From assembly GCA_030429705.1 (NCBI GenBank), contig JAUIES010000001.1:806001-870000 (forward strand): a stretch of DNA of 64,000 nucleotides, read 5' to 3'. The position numbers were made by a program, and so were the translations under genes. Positions 29,625 through 34,027 of this stretch are shown here, one piece after another (the stretch's first letter is position 1; each line of letters opens with the position of its first letter). This stretch comes from Phycisphaerae bacterium. Lineage in GTDB: Bacteria > Planctomycetota > Phycisphaerae > Phycisphaerales > UBA1924. The notes under the pieces are model-generated. The model was not told the DNA's origin, searched no databases, and was given only the letters and a program-made list of their open reading frames with translations.

Positions 29625-30548
29625 GTGCCCACAAGAACTCAATGTGCCCTCCTCGCATTCGGCCTGCTGACGGCCCCCGCTCTCGCTCAGGATGCCAGCG
29701 AGTCGGCTGTCGAATCTGAAGCGTCGCCGCCAAAAACCGGGTTCTCACTTCGATTTGATACTGAATGGATCGGTTCGGCAGACCTCGACACCGGTCCGGG
29801 TGATGTCTCGGTGACCCGGCTTGGTGCTTCCTTCGGCATTCGCCACATTGTCAACCCCAGACTCGCACTGCGATTTGGCGCGTCAGTCGAACATTCGCAA
29901 TATGATTTTTCCGGTGCCACAGGACTCGTGGCCGGCACCGCCGACCCTTTTGACGACATCACGATCACAACCGTCAGCGTGGGTGGTGAATATGCCAGTA
30001 GCGAGACTGACGCCTGGATTTTTGGAGTCTTCGTCCGATCGGCTGGTGAAAGCGGCGCCGATTTCGGCGACACCATCGACGGCGGCATCATGCTCGGTTA
30101 TCGACATACCTTCAGCGAAACATTCAGCCTCGGCGCGGCTGTCAATGTCGGGACCGAACTCGAAGACGACATTTACGCCATTCCCATCGTCATCATCGAC
30201 TGGCAGATCAACGATAAATGGCGATTGGCAACGACGGAACAAGCCCGCGTCCAACTCCGATACGAACACGCAGACGCGTGGGCGTTTGGTGTCGAAGGCG
30301 GGTACGAACGGCGAGAGTTTCGGCTCGATCAGTCAGGGCCGCTGCCTCATGGTGTCGTCGATGAACGCCGCATACCCCTCGCAGCATTCGCAACCTACAC
30401 CGCAAGTCCGAACTTCATCATCACCGGACGCATCGGGACTTCGGTCTGGTCTGAGTTCGAGTTCAGCAACAGCCGCGGCAATTTCGTCTCTGAAGACGAA
30501 CTCGCCGCTTCACTCGCTCTGGGTCTATCACTCACGGTGCGATTCTGA
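29625..30548 (+). CDS. Putative outer-membrane beta-barrel protein
   Basis: About 307 residues from the GTG at 29625, which has GGAG seven bases upstream. A signal peptide ends near PALAQ. After that the sequence alternates hydrophobic and polar residues in strand pairs (FGIRHIVNPRLALRFGASV, GYRHTFSETFSLGAAVNVG, FIITGRIGTSVWSEFEF), and the last residue is Phe (SLTVRF), the classic outer-membrane insertion signal. It resembles planctomycete barrels of the DUF6268 kind, though I cannot confirm the family. Transport or structural role unknown. Confidence 0.68.
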   Translation: MPTRTQCALLAFGLLTAPALAQDASESAVESEASPPKTGFSLRFDTEWIGSADLDTGPGDVSVTRLGASFGIRHIVNPRLALRFGASVEHSQYDFSGATGLVAGTADPFDDITITTVSVGGEYASSETDAWIFGVFVRSAGESGADFGDTIDGGIMLGYRHTFSETFSLGAAVNVGTELEDDIYAIPIVIIDWQINDKWRLATTEQARVQLRYEHADAWAFGVEGGYERREFRLDQSGPLPHGVVDERRIPLAAFATYTASPNFIITGRIGTSVWSEFEFSNSRGNFVSEDELAASLALGLSLTVRF

Positions 30549-30557
30549 ATCGTTCGT

Positions 30558-31226
30558 TCATCGAATCGGGGCTTCATCGCACCCGTCGGGCACGAAAGGC
30601 TCCCAACCAGTCTCAACCTCAACCGCGCCCGCAAGCATGGCGCGGTACGCAGACCGCGAGACCTCGACACACCCAAACCGGTCCAGATGCGGGTTCCAGA
30701 ATTGGGTATCCAGCAGTTGATAACCTCGCCGACGAAGATGCCCGACCAGATGCACGAGACACACCTTGCTGGCATCTGTTCCTCCACTAGCCGGTCGACT
30801 GAACATGCTCTCGCCCGCAAACAACCCACCGATGGAAACGCCATAAAGACCGCCCACGAGTACCGGCATGCCCATTTCGTCGTTTCGCCACGCTTCAATA
30901 GAATGGGCAAAACCATGGTCGTGCAAAATGCAATAGGCCTGTATCAAAGGCTCGGAGATCCACTCGCCATCTTCACCGCGTGGCTCGGCACACGCTCGAA
31001 TGACACGCTCGAATGCGACATCTGTCGTGACGGCGAATGCACCGCGACGAACGCACTGACGCAATGACCGGGGAACGACGAACCCACCCGGTTCGAGCGG
31101 GATCACGCCGCGCGGATCCGGGTCGTACCAGCCGATTTGTTGACTCTCCGGATCTCCCATCGGGAAGTACCCTCGCCGATAAGCATCGACTAATCCCCGA
31201 ACAAGTTCTTGATCCGACGCCGACAT
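30558..31226 (-). CDS. aat: Leucyl/phenylalanyl-tRNA--protein transferase
   Basis: This 222-residue enzyme attaches Leu or Phe from aminoacyl-tRNA to proteins with N-terminal Lys or Arg, marking them for ClpS/ClpAP by the N-end rule. Motifs: AYRRGYFPM and IGWYDPDPRGVIPL near the start, then MPVLVGGLYGVSIGGLFAGESMFS and LLDTQFWNPHLDRFG. The open frame extends ~190 codons further upstream, but that part lies antisense to three real small genes; the true start is MSASDQELV at 31226. ClpS and ClpA are not in the window. Confidence 0.93.
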   Translation of the reverse strand: MSASDQELVRGLVDAYRRGYFPMGDPESQQIGWYDPDPRGVIPLEPGGFVVPRSLRQCVRRGAFAVTTDVAFERVIRACAEPRGEDGEWISEPLIQAYCILHDHGFAHSIEAWRNDEMGMPVLVGGLYGVSIGGLFAGESMFSRPASGGTDASKVCLVHLVGHLRRRGYQLLDTQFWNPHLDRFGCVEVSRSAYRAMLAGAVEVETGWEPFVPDGCDEAPIR

Positions 31227-31335
31227 TCTGAGACAATAGCAGAGGAAAAAAGAGGCCCACTGCCAACTGAGCGGCAAGCCCATGAAATCCGGCCTGTCCA
31301 ATTCCGAATGATGCAGACAGCCGGAGGAAACAGGA

Positions 31336-31563
31336 ATGAATATGGATGGCATTGCGAACGAACTGATACGAAACGAAGAGACCTTGTTTATGGTCTTGGT
31401 CGCCACCGCGATCATTGCCTGCTCTTTGTTCAAAGCCGTGACCAACATCGTCACCGGGCTTGCTGGCGAACGGACCAGGCGTGATATCGCTGCGTACATC
31501 GCCGAGGGCACGATGACACCCGAACAAGGCGAACGACTCATCAACGCGAAGCGACGCTCGTAA
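31336..31563 (+). CDS. 75-aa membrane protein with SHOCT-like end, copy 1 of 3
   Basis: First of three tandem paralogues, each exactly 75 residues. A membrane helix at ~17-35 (LFMVLVATAIIACSLFKAV) is followed by the shared C-terminal module RRDIAAYIAEGTMTPEQGERL. That module resembles SHOCT-type short C-terminal domains, which usually oligomerise. GGAGG lies eight bases before the ATG. The predicted topology is a single helix with the module in the cytoplasm. No function is known. Confidence 0.8.
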   Translation: MNMDGIANELIRNEETLFMVLVATAIIACSLFKAVTNIVTGLAGERTRRDIAAYIAEGTMTPEQGERLINAKRRS

Positions 31564-31577
31564 CAGGGGACGAAAGC

Positions 31578-31805
31578 ATGCTCACATTGGGTAACCCGGG
31601 TGAACAGATCTTTGCACTCGCCATCCTTGGCGTGTTCTTCGGTTTGTGGATCATCGTCGCATCGATCAAATCCGTGATCAGTCATGCCATGTTCGAACGC
31701 AGTCGACGCGAGATCGCTGCGTATATTGCGGAAGGCTCGATGAGCCCGGAAGACGGCGAGCGATTGCTCGACAAGAAGTACTACAACGAAGACGAAGACG
31801 AGTAA
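31578..31805 (+). CDS. 75-aa membrane protein with SHOCT-like end, copy 2 of 3
   Basis: Second tandem paralogue, 14 bp after copy 1. Membrane helix at ~11-31 (IFALAILGVFFGLWIIVASI). The C-terminal module RREIAAYIAEGSMSPEDGERL is followed by an acidic tail (NEDEDE) that the other copies lack. The leader CAGGGGACGAAAGC has the same length and layout as the one before copy 3. Confidence 0.8.
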   Translation: MLTLGNPGEQIFALAILGVFFGLWIIVASIKSVISHAMFERSRREIAAYIAEGSMSPEDGERLLDKKYYNEDEDE

Positions 31806-31819
31806 CAAGGAGCAGAACG

Positions 31820-32047
31820 ATGGACAGCGTCAGCGAGTTTCCATTCTTCGATGCCATTCCCATCGTTGCGATTGTGGGGGGGCTTCTCATTGCTGCGATC
31901 GCAATCATTTCTGGGGTCGTGCGCAGCATGTCTCGTCGTCGTCACATCGAAGACTCACGCCGCGAACTTGCTGCGTATGTCGCTGAAGGGTCCATGACGA
32001 CCGATGACGCCGAACGCCTGCTGACCGCAGAACCAAAGAGCGCGTAG
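31820..32047 (+). CDS. 75-aa membrane protein with SHOCT-like end, copy 3 of 3
   Basis: Third tandem paralogue, 14 bp after copy 2, with AAGGAG seven bases before the ATG. Membrane helix at ~12-35 (IPIVAIVGGLLIAAIAIIS), a short basic linker (MSRRRH), then RRELAAYVAEGSMTTDDAERL. It is the most diverged in its helix and keeps the C-terminal module best. The stop is 6 bp from the convergent debranching-enzyme stop. Confidence 0.8.
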   Translation: MDSVSEFPFFDAIPIVAIVGGLLIAAIAIISGVVRSMSRRRHIEDSRRELAAYVAEGSMTTDDAERLLTAEPKSA

Positions 32048-32053
32048 CAACCA

Positions 32054-34027
32054 TCAGTTGAGCGGCGTCCCCGTAACCATCAACCACGCACGAAGCAACT
32101 CGGCGACTGACCACGCCTGCGCCGGGCACCCATCGGGTCGATGAGGCGCATCGCCGTCGCACACTTCACTGAGTTGGCCAACACACCAAGCGTCAAGGCG
32201 ACCGGTCATGGATGCAAGGATCGGCCGCAAATGCGCCCGTGCTGACGCTTGCGACTCGGCTGTTCGCCACACGCCTTCGGCGTACGCACCGAACAACCAA
32301 GGCCACACCGTCCCATTGTGATATGCCCGGTCACGCTCAAACAATGTCCCGATATAGGAACCGATGTAGGCGGGATCAGTCGGAGCGAGCGTGCGCAGCC
32401 CCACCGGTGTCAACAGATGCTCGCGTGTGACTTCAAGGACACTCCGCTTCATACCAGGATCGGCCGGGCTCTCAAGCAAACTGGCTGCAAAGACTTGGTT
32501 TGGACGAATCTCGTCAACCGGCACCCATGTTCCATCGCGCGGCTCGAGTCGATCGAACAACCCACCCTGTGGATTGAAAAACTGCGACCGGAATGAACGC
32601 TGAGCCCGCTCGGCCAAAGCGTTGAGCGTGGATGCCCGATCGGCGTCGTCTCCTTCGATGGCCCGCGCCACTCGAACCAGACCATGGTGCCACAGGGCGT
32701 TGATCTCTACACACTTGCCAAACCTCGGCGTAAAAGTCACGCCGTCACGCTGCGCATCCATCCAGGTCAGTTGCGTTTCGGGCGAACCGGCCGTGATCAA
32801 GCCGTCCTCCTCCATGCAAATGTCGTAGTCGGTCCCATGCTGATACGCCTCGATGATGTCGAGGCACGGCTGTTTGAGATCGGCTATGAATCCAGCGTGA
32901 TCGTCAGCTGTTTCTCGATACGCCGTCGCCGCGTGCAGAAACCAAAGCGACGCATCCACCGTGTTGTAGTGGGCGCCCCCCGCGTAATCGTCAAACCGGT
33001 TTGGAATCAGCCCACGCCGCAATGCCGAGCCGAACACTCGAAGCGTCGCAAACGCCTCAGCAAATCGGCCCGTTTCAAGCAGTAGTCCGGGCAACGAGAT
33101 CATGGTGTCGCGTCCCCAGTCAGAGAACCACGGGTATCCAGCAATGATCGATACACCTTGGTCCGCTTTCGCCCCCCCACGCCTGACAACGAACTGGTCA
33201 GCCGCCGCAACAAGCCGTGCGACCGCTTCGCGAGCCGGTCGATCACCCTCTGGCACCCGCTTCAGTGTGCTTTCGAGACCGGGCAATCCTGTGCTGCAGA
33301 CGAACGCTTGCTGAGCAGGCTGATCTGAAAGGCGAACCTCGACTGTGGTCGTCCCAACCCCGAACGCTGAGACAAACCTGCAAGGCACAATCAGGTCTTC
33401 CGCGCAGTCTTGCCCACGATCACGCTCAAGTGTGTACAGCAGACTCGACCATACCTCAAACTCGTCGACACGATCCTGTGCAGAACTACCAATGTGCACG
33501 CTCATAGACCCAGACCGCGCCGCAACTTCGTCTTCTCGATATTCGATATTGACGGGGTCGCTCCCTGCTGTGCGCAGGTCGTGGAAGTCGCGTAACGCGA
33601 GCAATGGCCGCAGCTCCAGTGAACCCGGTCGCTCGGCTTGAATGCGATAGGTCAATAGAGCCGCCGCGTGCCCAGCGCTGCGCTCGAGCACTTTTTCTAT
33701 CCGCACGCCGTCGCGTTCAAACCGCCAGATGATGCGTTGTCGGTCTTCGAGGAAGGCGCACTCGAACTGGACATTCGTTTCGCTCATCTCGCCTTCGACA
33801 AACCGCATCGGCGATAACCAATGTTCTTGCCCATCGACCACCAGTTTCTCAACGACCTGGCTGACCAGGACCACCCGGTCAACCGGCGGATGCAAGGCTG
33901 CGACCAGAAGCCCGTGGTATCGCCTTGTCAGCGTGCCGGTCGCCGTACCCATGGCGAATCCGCCGAGACCATCGGTGAGCAACCACTCTGTGTCAAGAGG
34001 TGTCCGGGCGGCGCGTGGGTCATTCAT
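32054..34027 (-). CDS. Glycogen debranching enzyme (amylo-alpha-1,6-glucosidase type)
   Basis: This 657-residue protein has two regions. The N-terminal beta-rich domain starts with TEWLLTDGLGGFAMGTATG, TRRYHGLLVAAL. The C-terminal (alpha/alpha)6 barrel has the family signature AGYPWFSDWGRDTMISLPGL, later YNTVDASLWFLHA, and VEINALWHHGL with EEDGLITAGSPETQLTWMDA. The acidic residues in DWGRD and TWMDA are the expected catalytic or sugar-binding positions. It would remove alpha-1,6 branch glucose from glycogen-like polymers in the cytoplasm. No other glycogen gene is in the window. The stop is 6 bp from the last 75-aa gene, convergent. Confidence 0.92.
   Translation of the reverse strand: MNDPRAARTPLDTEWLLTDGLGGFAMGTATGTLTRRYHGLLVAALHPPVDRVVLVSQVVEKLVVDGQEHWLSPMRFVEGEMSETNVQFECAFLEDRQRIIWRFERDGVRIEKVLERSAGHAAALLTYRIQAERPGSLELRPLLALRDFHDLRTAGSDPVNIEYREDEVAARSGSMSVHIGSSAQDRVDEFEVWSSLLYTLERDRGQDCAEDLIVPCRFVSAFGVGTTTVEVRLSDQPAQQAFVCSTGLPGLESTLKRVPEGDRPAREAVARLVAAADQFVVRRGGAKADQGVSIIAGYPWFSDWGRDTMISLPGLLLETGRFAEAFATLRVFGSALRRGLIPNRFDDYAGGAHYNTVDASLWFLHAATAYRETADDHAGFIADLKQPCLDIIEAYQHGTDYDICMEEDGLITAGSPETQLTWMDAQRDGVTFTPRFGKCVEINALWHHGLVRVARAIEGDDADRASTLNALAERAQRSFRSQFFNPQGGLFDRLEPRDGTWVPVDEIRPNQVFAASLLESPADPGMKRSVLEVTREHLLTPVGLRTLAPTDPAYIGSYIGTLFERDRAYHNGTVWPWLFGAYAEGVWRTAESQASARAHLRPILASMTGRLDAWCVGQLSEVCDGDAPHRPDGCPAQAWSVAELLRAWLMVTGTPLN

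Follow-up and report, generated by a model that had tools for sequence, protein, structure and literature searches.

The 64,000-nucleotide stretch of a Phycisphaerae genome analysed here (hereafter the window) contains three consecutive short genes, each encoding a 75-residue protein with a hydrophobic segment and a similar C-terminal end, and the question raised by this locus is what a bacterium may do with several small membrane proteins of one kind, encoded side by side and, in this case, exactly equal in length. A first-pass annotation of the sequence had read the triplet as three membrane-inserted versions of one soluble contact surface, made together for a hetero-oligomeric complex, and had taken the equal lengths of the genes as a sign of selection on length. 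The comparisons reported below support this interpretation in part, insofar as one module on several differing membrane segments is a conserved arrangement, and do not support selection on length.

The triplet and its C-terminal module

The three genes (Table 1) are separated by two 14-nt spacers, with 242 nt from start to start, and stand alone between aat and a glycogen debranching enzyme gene, with no further genes in between; these two neighbours are flanks, lying outside the array system. Each protein contains a hydrophobic segment (best 19-residue mean hydropathy 2.36-2.85), and the C-terminal module is encoded within an 85-nt direct repeat, whose second and third copies share 72% and 62% identity with the first. 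The C-termini, which according to the first-pass annotation might prove to lack a significant match to one another, match strongly, with pairwise scores for the three proteins of 92-111 against shuffle maxima of 41-53 (2000 shuffles per pair), while the similarity of the N-terminal halves is not significant (shuffle fractions 0.73, 0.12 and 0.06). Judged by these scores, the modules of the three window genes are clearly homologous and the membrane halves not recognisably so. The initial description of three 75-residue ORFs with 14-nt spacers, one membrane segment each and a common C-terminal module is confirmed; the addition that their exact period is under selection is not.

Table 1. Features of the triplet, its surroundings and the candidate sigma locus (window positions unless a locus is named)
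Feature	Position	Strand	Description
Array gene 1	31336-31563	+	ATG ORF, 75 aa; 'first gene' type (PEQGERL); single-pass membrane protein with SHOCT-like module, N-out/C-in expected
Array gene 2	31578-31805	+	ATG ORF, 75 aa; acidic C-terminal tail
Array gene 3	31820-32047	+	ATG ORF, 75 aa; 'last gene' type (DDAERL)
Module copy 1	31467-31551	+	RRDIAAYIAEGTMTPEQGERL; 85-nt direct repeat; profile E 1.3e-17 (own profile, copy 1 included in it)
Module copy 2	31694-31778	+	RREIAAYIAEGSMSPEDGERL; 85-nt direct repeat; profile E 3.6e-17
Module copy 3	31948-32032	+	RRELAAYVAEGSMTTDDAERL; 85-nt direct repeat; profile E 3.3e-15
Promoter-like motif, bipartite	31283-31308	+	TGAAATCCGGCCTGTCCAATTCCGAA; TGAAA-N15-TCCGAA, 27 nt upstream of first ATG; -35/-10-like, ECF type proposed
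aat, leucyl/phenylalanyl-tRNA--protein transferase	30558-31226	-	divergent neighbour; PF03588 1e-58, NCBIfam TIGR00667; start read from sequence
Glycogen debranching enzyme	32054-34027	-	convergent neighbour, its stop 6 nt past gene 3; PF06202 3.4e-110
Coiled-coil, ECF sigma and membrane Ser/Thr kinase cassette	L329:5118-9578 (own genome, contig C7)		beside a presumed MreB-like gene; homologous cassette in 8 other genomes (L315-L322)

The module spacings are 227 and 254 nt, against 242 nt between starts, and therefore the start period does not mirror a repeated unit. In gene 2 the part before the module is shorter, and the tail longer, than in its siblings, and the AAY of the module begins at residue 52 in gene 1, 47 in gene 2 and 51 in gene 3; since these offsets vary, the equal lengths result from unlike fronts and tails that sum alike by chance. 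Among the relatives, whose start codons were chosen by a script for this comparison, all copies are equal in length in 2 of 36 multi-copy loci (the window and one pair), a set in which the L080 pair, 5.6 kb apart, counts as a two-copy locus. A wider, overlapping set without the window, not deduplicated, has all-equal lengths in 3 of 95 loci, every one a pair, and in none of the 45 loci with at least three copies. The chance of three equal lengths, when drawn from the length distributions of the family, is about 0.001 for a feature that was chosen after the fact. With uneven module spacings and equal lengths that are not conserved among relatives, selection on exact length is rejected: the length and period of the triplet are accidental.

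The predicted anatomy is that of single-pass proteins with a small helical cytoplasmic end. In 231 of 232 proteins lysine and arginine are more numerous C-terminal to the membrane segment than N-terminal to it (a count that includes the first basic residues of the module), and an N-out/C-in topology is therefore expected. The AlphaFold2 model of gene 2 (105 aligned sequences; mean pLDDT 85.1, pTM 0.54) consists of a helix at residues 7-52, a break and two helices at 57-64 and 66-72, the last ten or so residues being of low confidence; in this model the membrane helix runs without interruption into the first module helix. Searches of Pfam, NCBIfam and PDB sequences gave no family over cut-off for the three window proteins and none convincing for the wider family, and a fold search in the PDB returned 47 matches, none at E <= 0.001, which is uninformative because the query fold is a long helix.

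The affinity of the module was pursued by profile comparison. The SHOCT model PF09851 has no match to the three window proteins at E <= 1, and its sole place in the genome of the window (C4:40639, 20.3 bits, under cut-off) lies away from the array. A profile of the module (224 sequences) aligned with 7 members of SHOCT-like_DUF2089-C (PF22746) by hhalign with a probability of 96.9 and a score of 40.2, against at most 17.4 in 200 column-shuffled controls. Individually, the window proteins score 15.0, 12.8 and 12.4 bits with PF22746, under the curated cut-off of 27; 26 of the 51 members of set A1 match it at E <= 0.1 (best 4.3e-4), the best array-type place in the genomes of relatives reaches 22.7 bits, and the array profile (E 2.8e-4) and PF22746 (1.5e-10) both hit one and the same protein of the order, from G041. 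By profile similarity, then, the module is a distant relative of SHOCT-like DUF2089-C that falls under the Pfam cut-off, so that the name SHOCT-like given to it at first holds in the sense of this distant kinship and not in that of a PF09851 match.

The two share a predicted two-helix motif in register (R-x-I ... AEG-x-[IM]-[ST] ... AERLL) and differ in that the array module lies near the C-terminus after a membrane helix and carries the signature AAY[IV]AEG, whereas in the seven PF22746 members examined the domain directly follows the start methionine. PF22746 itself is over cut-off in Bacillus subtilis and Thermotoga maritima. On the sequence evidence, the arrays consist of lineage-specific membrane-anchored SHOCT-like proteins. 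Passages of PMC11237479 discuss SHOCT-like domains, for which a role in bringing activities to the membrane and an interface with phage-shock systems are proposed; among the papers listed by our literature search on SHOCT-like and DUF2089 domains none concerned these arrays, and no paper was found on SHOCT or small membrane proteins of Phycisphaerales.

Two further observations concern the tails that follow the module. Among 232 array-type proteins, cysteine makes up 5.2% of post-module tails, against 0.9% before the module and none inside it; it occurs in 99 of the 232 tails (in 79 of these within the last four residues), on the predicted cytoplasmic side, and in none of the three window proteins. 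Additionally, a second, weaker and degenerate module-like stretch (e.g. AVAWGMLSSKKAEQLLRA) is present in the long tails of proteins from L052, L070, L098, L129, L137, L140, L144 and L147.

Distribution and order of the arrays

With a single protein as query, 47 of 61 genomes gave a match at E <= 1, in part a weak one; when the order was searched with a profile at E <= 1e-5, 133 of 301 genomes were positive. Counting copies per genome (mostly, not always, adjacent), at least two are present in 98 of the 106 positive genomes of the window's family and one in 8 (our count of the table); at least 12 genomes of this family are negative among the negatives listed, in a list ordered by kinship. The first-pass annotation had named as a contrary outcome that homologues be found mostly singly, and this is not the case in the window's family; outside it, 14 of the 27 positive genomes of other families of the order have a single copy and 13 at least two. 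Copies per genome range from 1 to 5, and in family f4 five of the six positive genomes have one. A search of the phylum gave a match at E <= 0.01 in 27 of 392 genomes, and matches better than 1e-12 all fall within the same order.

A contig scan gave 173 relatives, of which the best 80 were used, with nearly all of these 80 labelled Phycisphaerales, Phycisphaeraceae, Phycisphaerae, Phycisphaera or Planctomycetota and three labelled otherwise. The loci L083, L111 and L140, which bear this family under the labels Cyanobacteria, Vicinamibacteraceae and unnamed bacterium, probably come from mislabelled MAGs. The 48 loci with hits (window included) have one copy in 12 cases, two in 23, three in 10 and four in 3. 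The arrays recur in two settings, aat/GDE/IMPDH and Na-H antiporter/queA/murE, and in neither was a recurrent partner gene found within the array unit from which a function might be read. Gene calls in these GC-rich genomes are mechanical and spurious antisense ORFs are frequent in the clustering of neighbours, so neighbour clusters were taken as leads only. Because loci from genome sets and named loci share genomes, proteins or loci with the same last 30 or 45 residues were treated as one in the counts of charge bias, signatures and upstream motifs, a procedure after which near-duplicates remain. By these sequence comparisons the family is conserved as tandem arrays in Phycisphaerales.

The arrays also have an internal order. 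A tree of 207 members of multi-copy loci is poorly resolved, 25 of its 204 inner branches being starred, but 9 changes between the labels 'first' and 'last' suffice on it; when the two labels were swapped at random within the 79 arrays, 500 times, the mean was 53.3 changes and the lowest number 40. First and last genes are, on this tree, separate lineages, and the arrays are old and ordered; PEQGER is favoured among first genes and PEDAER among last genes, and the separation is carried by the module, whose identity is 73.8% between first genes, 64.0% between first and last genes and 62.6% between last genes. The membrane halves are 27-28% identical in every comparison, whether at the same position across genomes (27-28%) or within one array (27%), and being equally unlike throughout they speak against a conserved, tightly packed membrane interface. 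In the window, the five nearest tree rows of gene 1 are all first genes of other arrays and four of the five nearest of gene 3 are last genes, while the nearest relatives of gene 2 are first genes of other arrays, not middle ones.

A promoter-like motif and the genes behind it

In the surroundings of the triplet, Rfam at gathering scores gave 0 matches (30500-32500), a sigma-70 scan found 0 promoter-like sites (31150-32150), and of the 4 terminator-like sites in 31150-32150 none lies 3' of gene 3. In the 120 nt upstream of 103 first genes, a set limited to upstreams of at least 100 nt, the 7-mers TTCCCAA (26) and TGAAATC (22) exceed the maximum of 12 found in 20 base shuffles, a few GC-rich 7-mers reaching 14. 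When GAAA and TCC[C/G]AA were sought together in the 150 nt before the 103 first genes, they were found 15 nt apart in 52 cases and 16 nt apart in 3, with none at spacers of 10-14 or 17-21, and the reversed motif gave 0 at every spacer. The motif precedes 0 of 125 inner genes (120 nt were examined there, against 200 nt for first genes); its distance to the chosen start codon is 24-92 nt for all but one of 56 first matches, and 159 nt for that one. Positions that were not part of the search are conserved as well: a T precedes GAAA in 84%, and an A stands three bases past the second element in 75% of 52 sites.

With the window excluded, the strict motif (spacer 15-16) is present before 54 of 102 first or single genes and the relaxed motif before 75; even the relaxed form is absent from the other 27 arrays or single genes. 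By setting, the relaxed motif is present at 51 of 62 aat/GDE/IMPDH loci, 16 of 19 queA loci and 8 of 21 others; by copy number, it is present at 63 of 77 loci with several copies and 12 of 25 with one. Its presence across settings indicates that it travels with the array, not with one neighbourhood. Among 226 upstreams of neighbouring genes, a control set that was not deduplicated and from which upstreams shorter than 100 nt were left out, it occurs once in strict and twice in relaxed form, both before a Bax-inhibitor-like gene, and it is found in 0 of 51 aat upstreams. Two short elements, a rigid spacing and closeness to the start codon are as in the targets of ECF sigma factors, and we infer from them that TGAAA-N15-TCC[C/G]AA is a promoter of the ECF-sigma type. 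Since the motif precedes the first gene only, the array is apparently one transcription unit. The first-pass picture of one module carried on three differing membrane segments is borne out, and the arrangement is kept.

The motif is not confined to the arrays. In the genome of the window, GAAAN15TCCSAA has 13 matches, against 3 for the reversed control; the three sites with the leading T precede the array, a 125-aa secreted-looking protein and a Band_7_1 protein with a GYF_2 domain, and most of the 10 other sites of the GAAA type lie inside other long ORFs or have no convincing gene. The secreted-looking protein, which has no Pfam match and stands 23 nt behind its strict motif (L238, C7:342172-342197, minus strand), is a possible regulon member. 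Across 22 array-bearing genomes of the family, TGAAAN15TCCSAA has 68 sites, against 6 for the reversed motif, with 3 of the 22 lacking a strict site; 12 of the 68 are upstream of array-type genes and 56 elsewhere. Downstream genes were examined at 63 of the 68 sites, the other 5 being sites before array genes. The families that recur behind the 56 non-array sites are a coiled-coil family with an N-terminal hydrophobic segment (8 sites), DUF4870 (4; two of these members were tested and are Pfam-confirmed, PF09685), Band_7_1 (2), an unnamed secreted-looking family (3) and another unnamed family (2). Single cases are LemA, a Band_7 protein that we take to be HflK-like, a peptidase S49, a DUF4230 protein, an ABC ATPase, an LpoB match and a DUF4097 match below cut-off. 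At 16 of the 56 sites there is no well-placed gene start, and several more precede short doubtful ORFs.

Passages of PMC3581485 describe SHOCT domains as most often joined to Band_7_1 (PF13421), and also to PF09685 proteins, with Planctomycetes among the hosts. Two families that are fused to SHOCT elsewhere therefore share the motif here with a free-standing SHOCT-like protein. Band_7_1 proteins of this type are present in 13 of 37 genomes, two of which have the strict motif before them (both known from the motif search) and two a spacer-14 form found in no array; with so patchy a distribution and so rare a motif, Band_7_1 is not a general partner and at most an optional one. PspA (PF04012) is over cut-off in 1 of 41 genomes (G021) and PspC (PF04024) in 3 of 41, with no match to either in G000, so that neither is supported as a partner of the arrays; the coiled-coil family, considered as a PspA homologue, has no PspA match. 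G021, the sole relative with a clear PspA, has no array, which as a single case gives a hint of replacement.

The coiled-coil gene is present in 9 of 15 loci searched, and in all nine, the genome of the window included, it is divergently adjoined by genes for an ECF sigma factor and a membrane kinase. Eight of these nine loci were found via the motif, whose presence toward the coiled-coil gene is there a matter of selection; in the window's genome a one-mismatch form (TGAAA-N15-TCGGAA, read by eye) lies about 100 nt upstream of it. The sigma factor of L317 matches Sigma70_r2 (3e-10) and Sigma70_ECF (8e-8), that of L318 being similar, and the membrane kinase 3' of sigma matches Pkinase (4e-19; 1e-16 in the window's genome). 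The gene that follows the coiled-coil gene in the latter is, judged from its start, presumably MreB-like, and its family occupies the same place in four of the remaining eight. In none of the 9 genomes compared is the array near the sigma locus. By its adjacency, the divergent ECF factor is the likeliest candidate for the sigma that reads the motif. A motif points toward the sigma gene itself in 2 of the 9 loci, in one of them in relaxed form only, so autoregulation would not be general. At L287/L321 (G014:C34), where two opposed strict motifs separate the coiled-coil gene from the sigma gene, the sigma may regulate itself. For the groups ECF59, 61, 62 and 217, with planctomycete examples, control by phosphorylation has been proposed from kinase neighbours in passages of PMC8999054; passages of the ECF reviews PMC8999054 and PMC8103513 name no target promoter for these groups.

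Proposed role and comparison with known stress systems

A conserved motif common to envelope genes suggests a role in membrane stress, rather than a fixed-length three-part machine. In the mechanism that we propose, the three genes would form one transcription unit of small single-pass inner-membrane proteins, in each of which a long helix continues from the membrane into the cytoplasm and ends in a SHOCT-like module of two short helices. As the gene of a membrane Ser/Thr kinase follows that of the candidate sigma, the likely trigger would be envelope stress sensed by this kinase; the ECF sigma would become active, and the regulon would be transcribed from promoters of the ECF type, including the array and the genes for the membrane-anchored coiled-coil, DUF4870, SPFH/Band_7, LemA and other envelope proteins. 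The array proteins would then display, on the cytoplasmic side of the membrane, several versions of a single docking surface, which may recruit or organise stress-response proteins, as YdjG/YdjH do for YdjI and PspA in Bacillus subtilis, with the Band_7_1 and DUF4870 proteins as first docking candidates. For this reading as a whole, that is, N-out/C-in membrane adaptors within an ECF-type envelope-stress regulon whose sigma, signal and docking partner are deduced, we see about even chances. A bolder version, which we offer as a doubtful conjecture, is that Phycisphaerales have a phosphorylation-controlled ECF envelope-stress regulon that does phage-shock work without PspA, with the diversified single-helix SHOCT-like array as receptor and, as coat, the membrane-anchored coiled-coil protein encoded by the sigma-kinase pair, accompanied in some genomes by the MreB-like gene.

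Three other explanations were weighed. The paralogues may form a constitutive hetero-oligomeric membrane complex, assembling in fixed numbers via predicted contacts of their common modules, as the co-linear genes with their 14-nt spacers, the joint retention of first and last lineages (9 label changes against a mean of 53) and the presence of at least two copies in 98 of 106 positive family genomes would lead one to expect. However, with 1-5 copies per genome and a single one in 5 of 6 f4 genomes, a fixed three-part assembly is not general; the membrane halves, at 27-28% identity throughout, are not conserved by position, which counts against a tight complex, and one SHOCT domain, assayed by the authors who named SHOCT, failed to oligomerise (a passage of PMC3581485). 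We consider such a complex unlikely. The same variation in copy number between related genomes, together with the free drift of the membrane halves and the retention of a single copy in some relatives of the order, would suit redundant paralogues, i.e. an adaptor of one function, duplicated in tandem and retained through dosage effects or drift, whose copies have not specialised; yet the position-specific signatures (PEQGER first, PEDAER last) and the separation of lineages point to long-standing specialisation, and make plain redundancy quite unlikely.

Small helical cytoplasmic domains occur in anti-sigma factors, and the array proteins, membrane proteins with a domain of this kind and apparently under the same type of promoter as the regulon genes, could instead be a small set of membrane-anchored feedback regulators, whose module would bind the ECF sigma or the kinase and shut the response off. 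Against this stand the separation of the arrays from the sigma locus in 9 of 9 genomes compared, the fact that no anti-sigma family of Pfam or NCBIfam matches the three proteins at E <= 1, and the kinase that already adjoins the sigma, phosphorylation control having been proposed for such settings in part of PMC8999054; feedback regulation is the least probable of these explanations, and we regard it as very unlikely.

SHOCT and SHOCT-like domains are widespread and their function is unsettled. In the arrays the module makes up nearly the entire soluble part of the protein, is multiplied in tandem and stands behind a conserved promoter-like motif, which it has in common with Band_7_1, DUF4870 and coiled-coil genes. 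The module is thereby placed in a regulatory setting, and a few candidate partners can be named for it. For a planctomycete ECF sigma that is paired with a Ser/Thr kinase, the motif also supplies a candidate target promoter. What is new here, and deserves further study, is this promoter-like motif together with its regulon.

The first element of promoters recognised by sigma-W of B. subtilis is TGAAAC and the second CGTA; the TGAAA of the array motif resembles the former, and its second element differs from the latter. Sigma-W controls pspA-ydjGHI, yuaF-yuaG (floT), yqeZ-yqfAB, sppA-yteJ and yvlABCD (from passages of PMC3498285), and YdjG/H are integral membrane proteins required to localise YdjI and PspA at the membrane (from passages of PMC8581546). 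The system proposed here is like PspA-YdjG-YdjH-YdjI under sigma-W in outline, with membrane proteins, an SPFH protein, a coiled-coil protein and an envelope-stress sigma, the array proteins being likened to YdjG/YdjH by their proposed role; it is unlike it in that PspA is nearly absent from these genomes and the genes do not form one operon. Because of this near absence, the array system is not the phage-shock system, and the three proteins have no PspB or PspC match in Pfam at E <= 1; the likeness to PspB and PspC lies in the proposed role, that of small membrane proteins acting at the inner membrane under envelope stress. With the planctomycete groups ECF59, 61, 62 and 217, the candidate sigma locus shares its gene order, an ECF sigma gene followed by that of a membrane Ser/Thr kinase (Pkinase).
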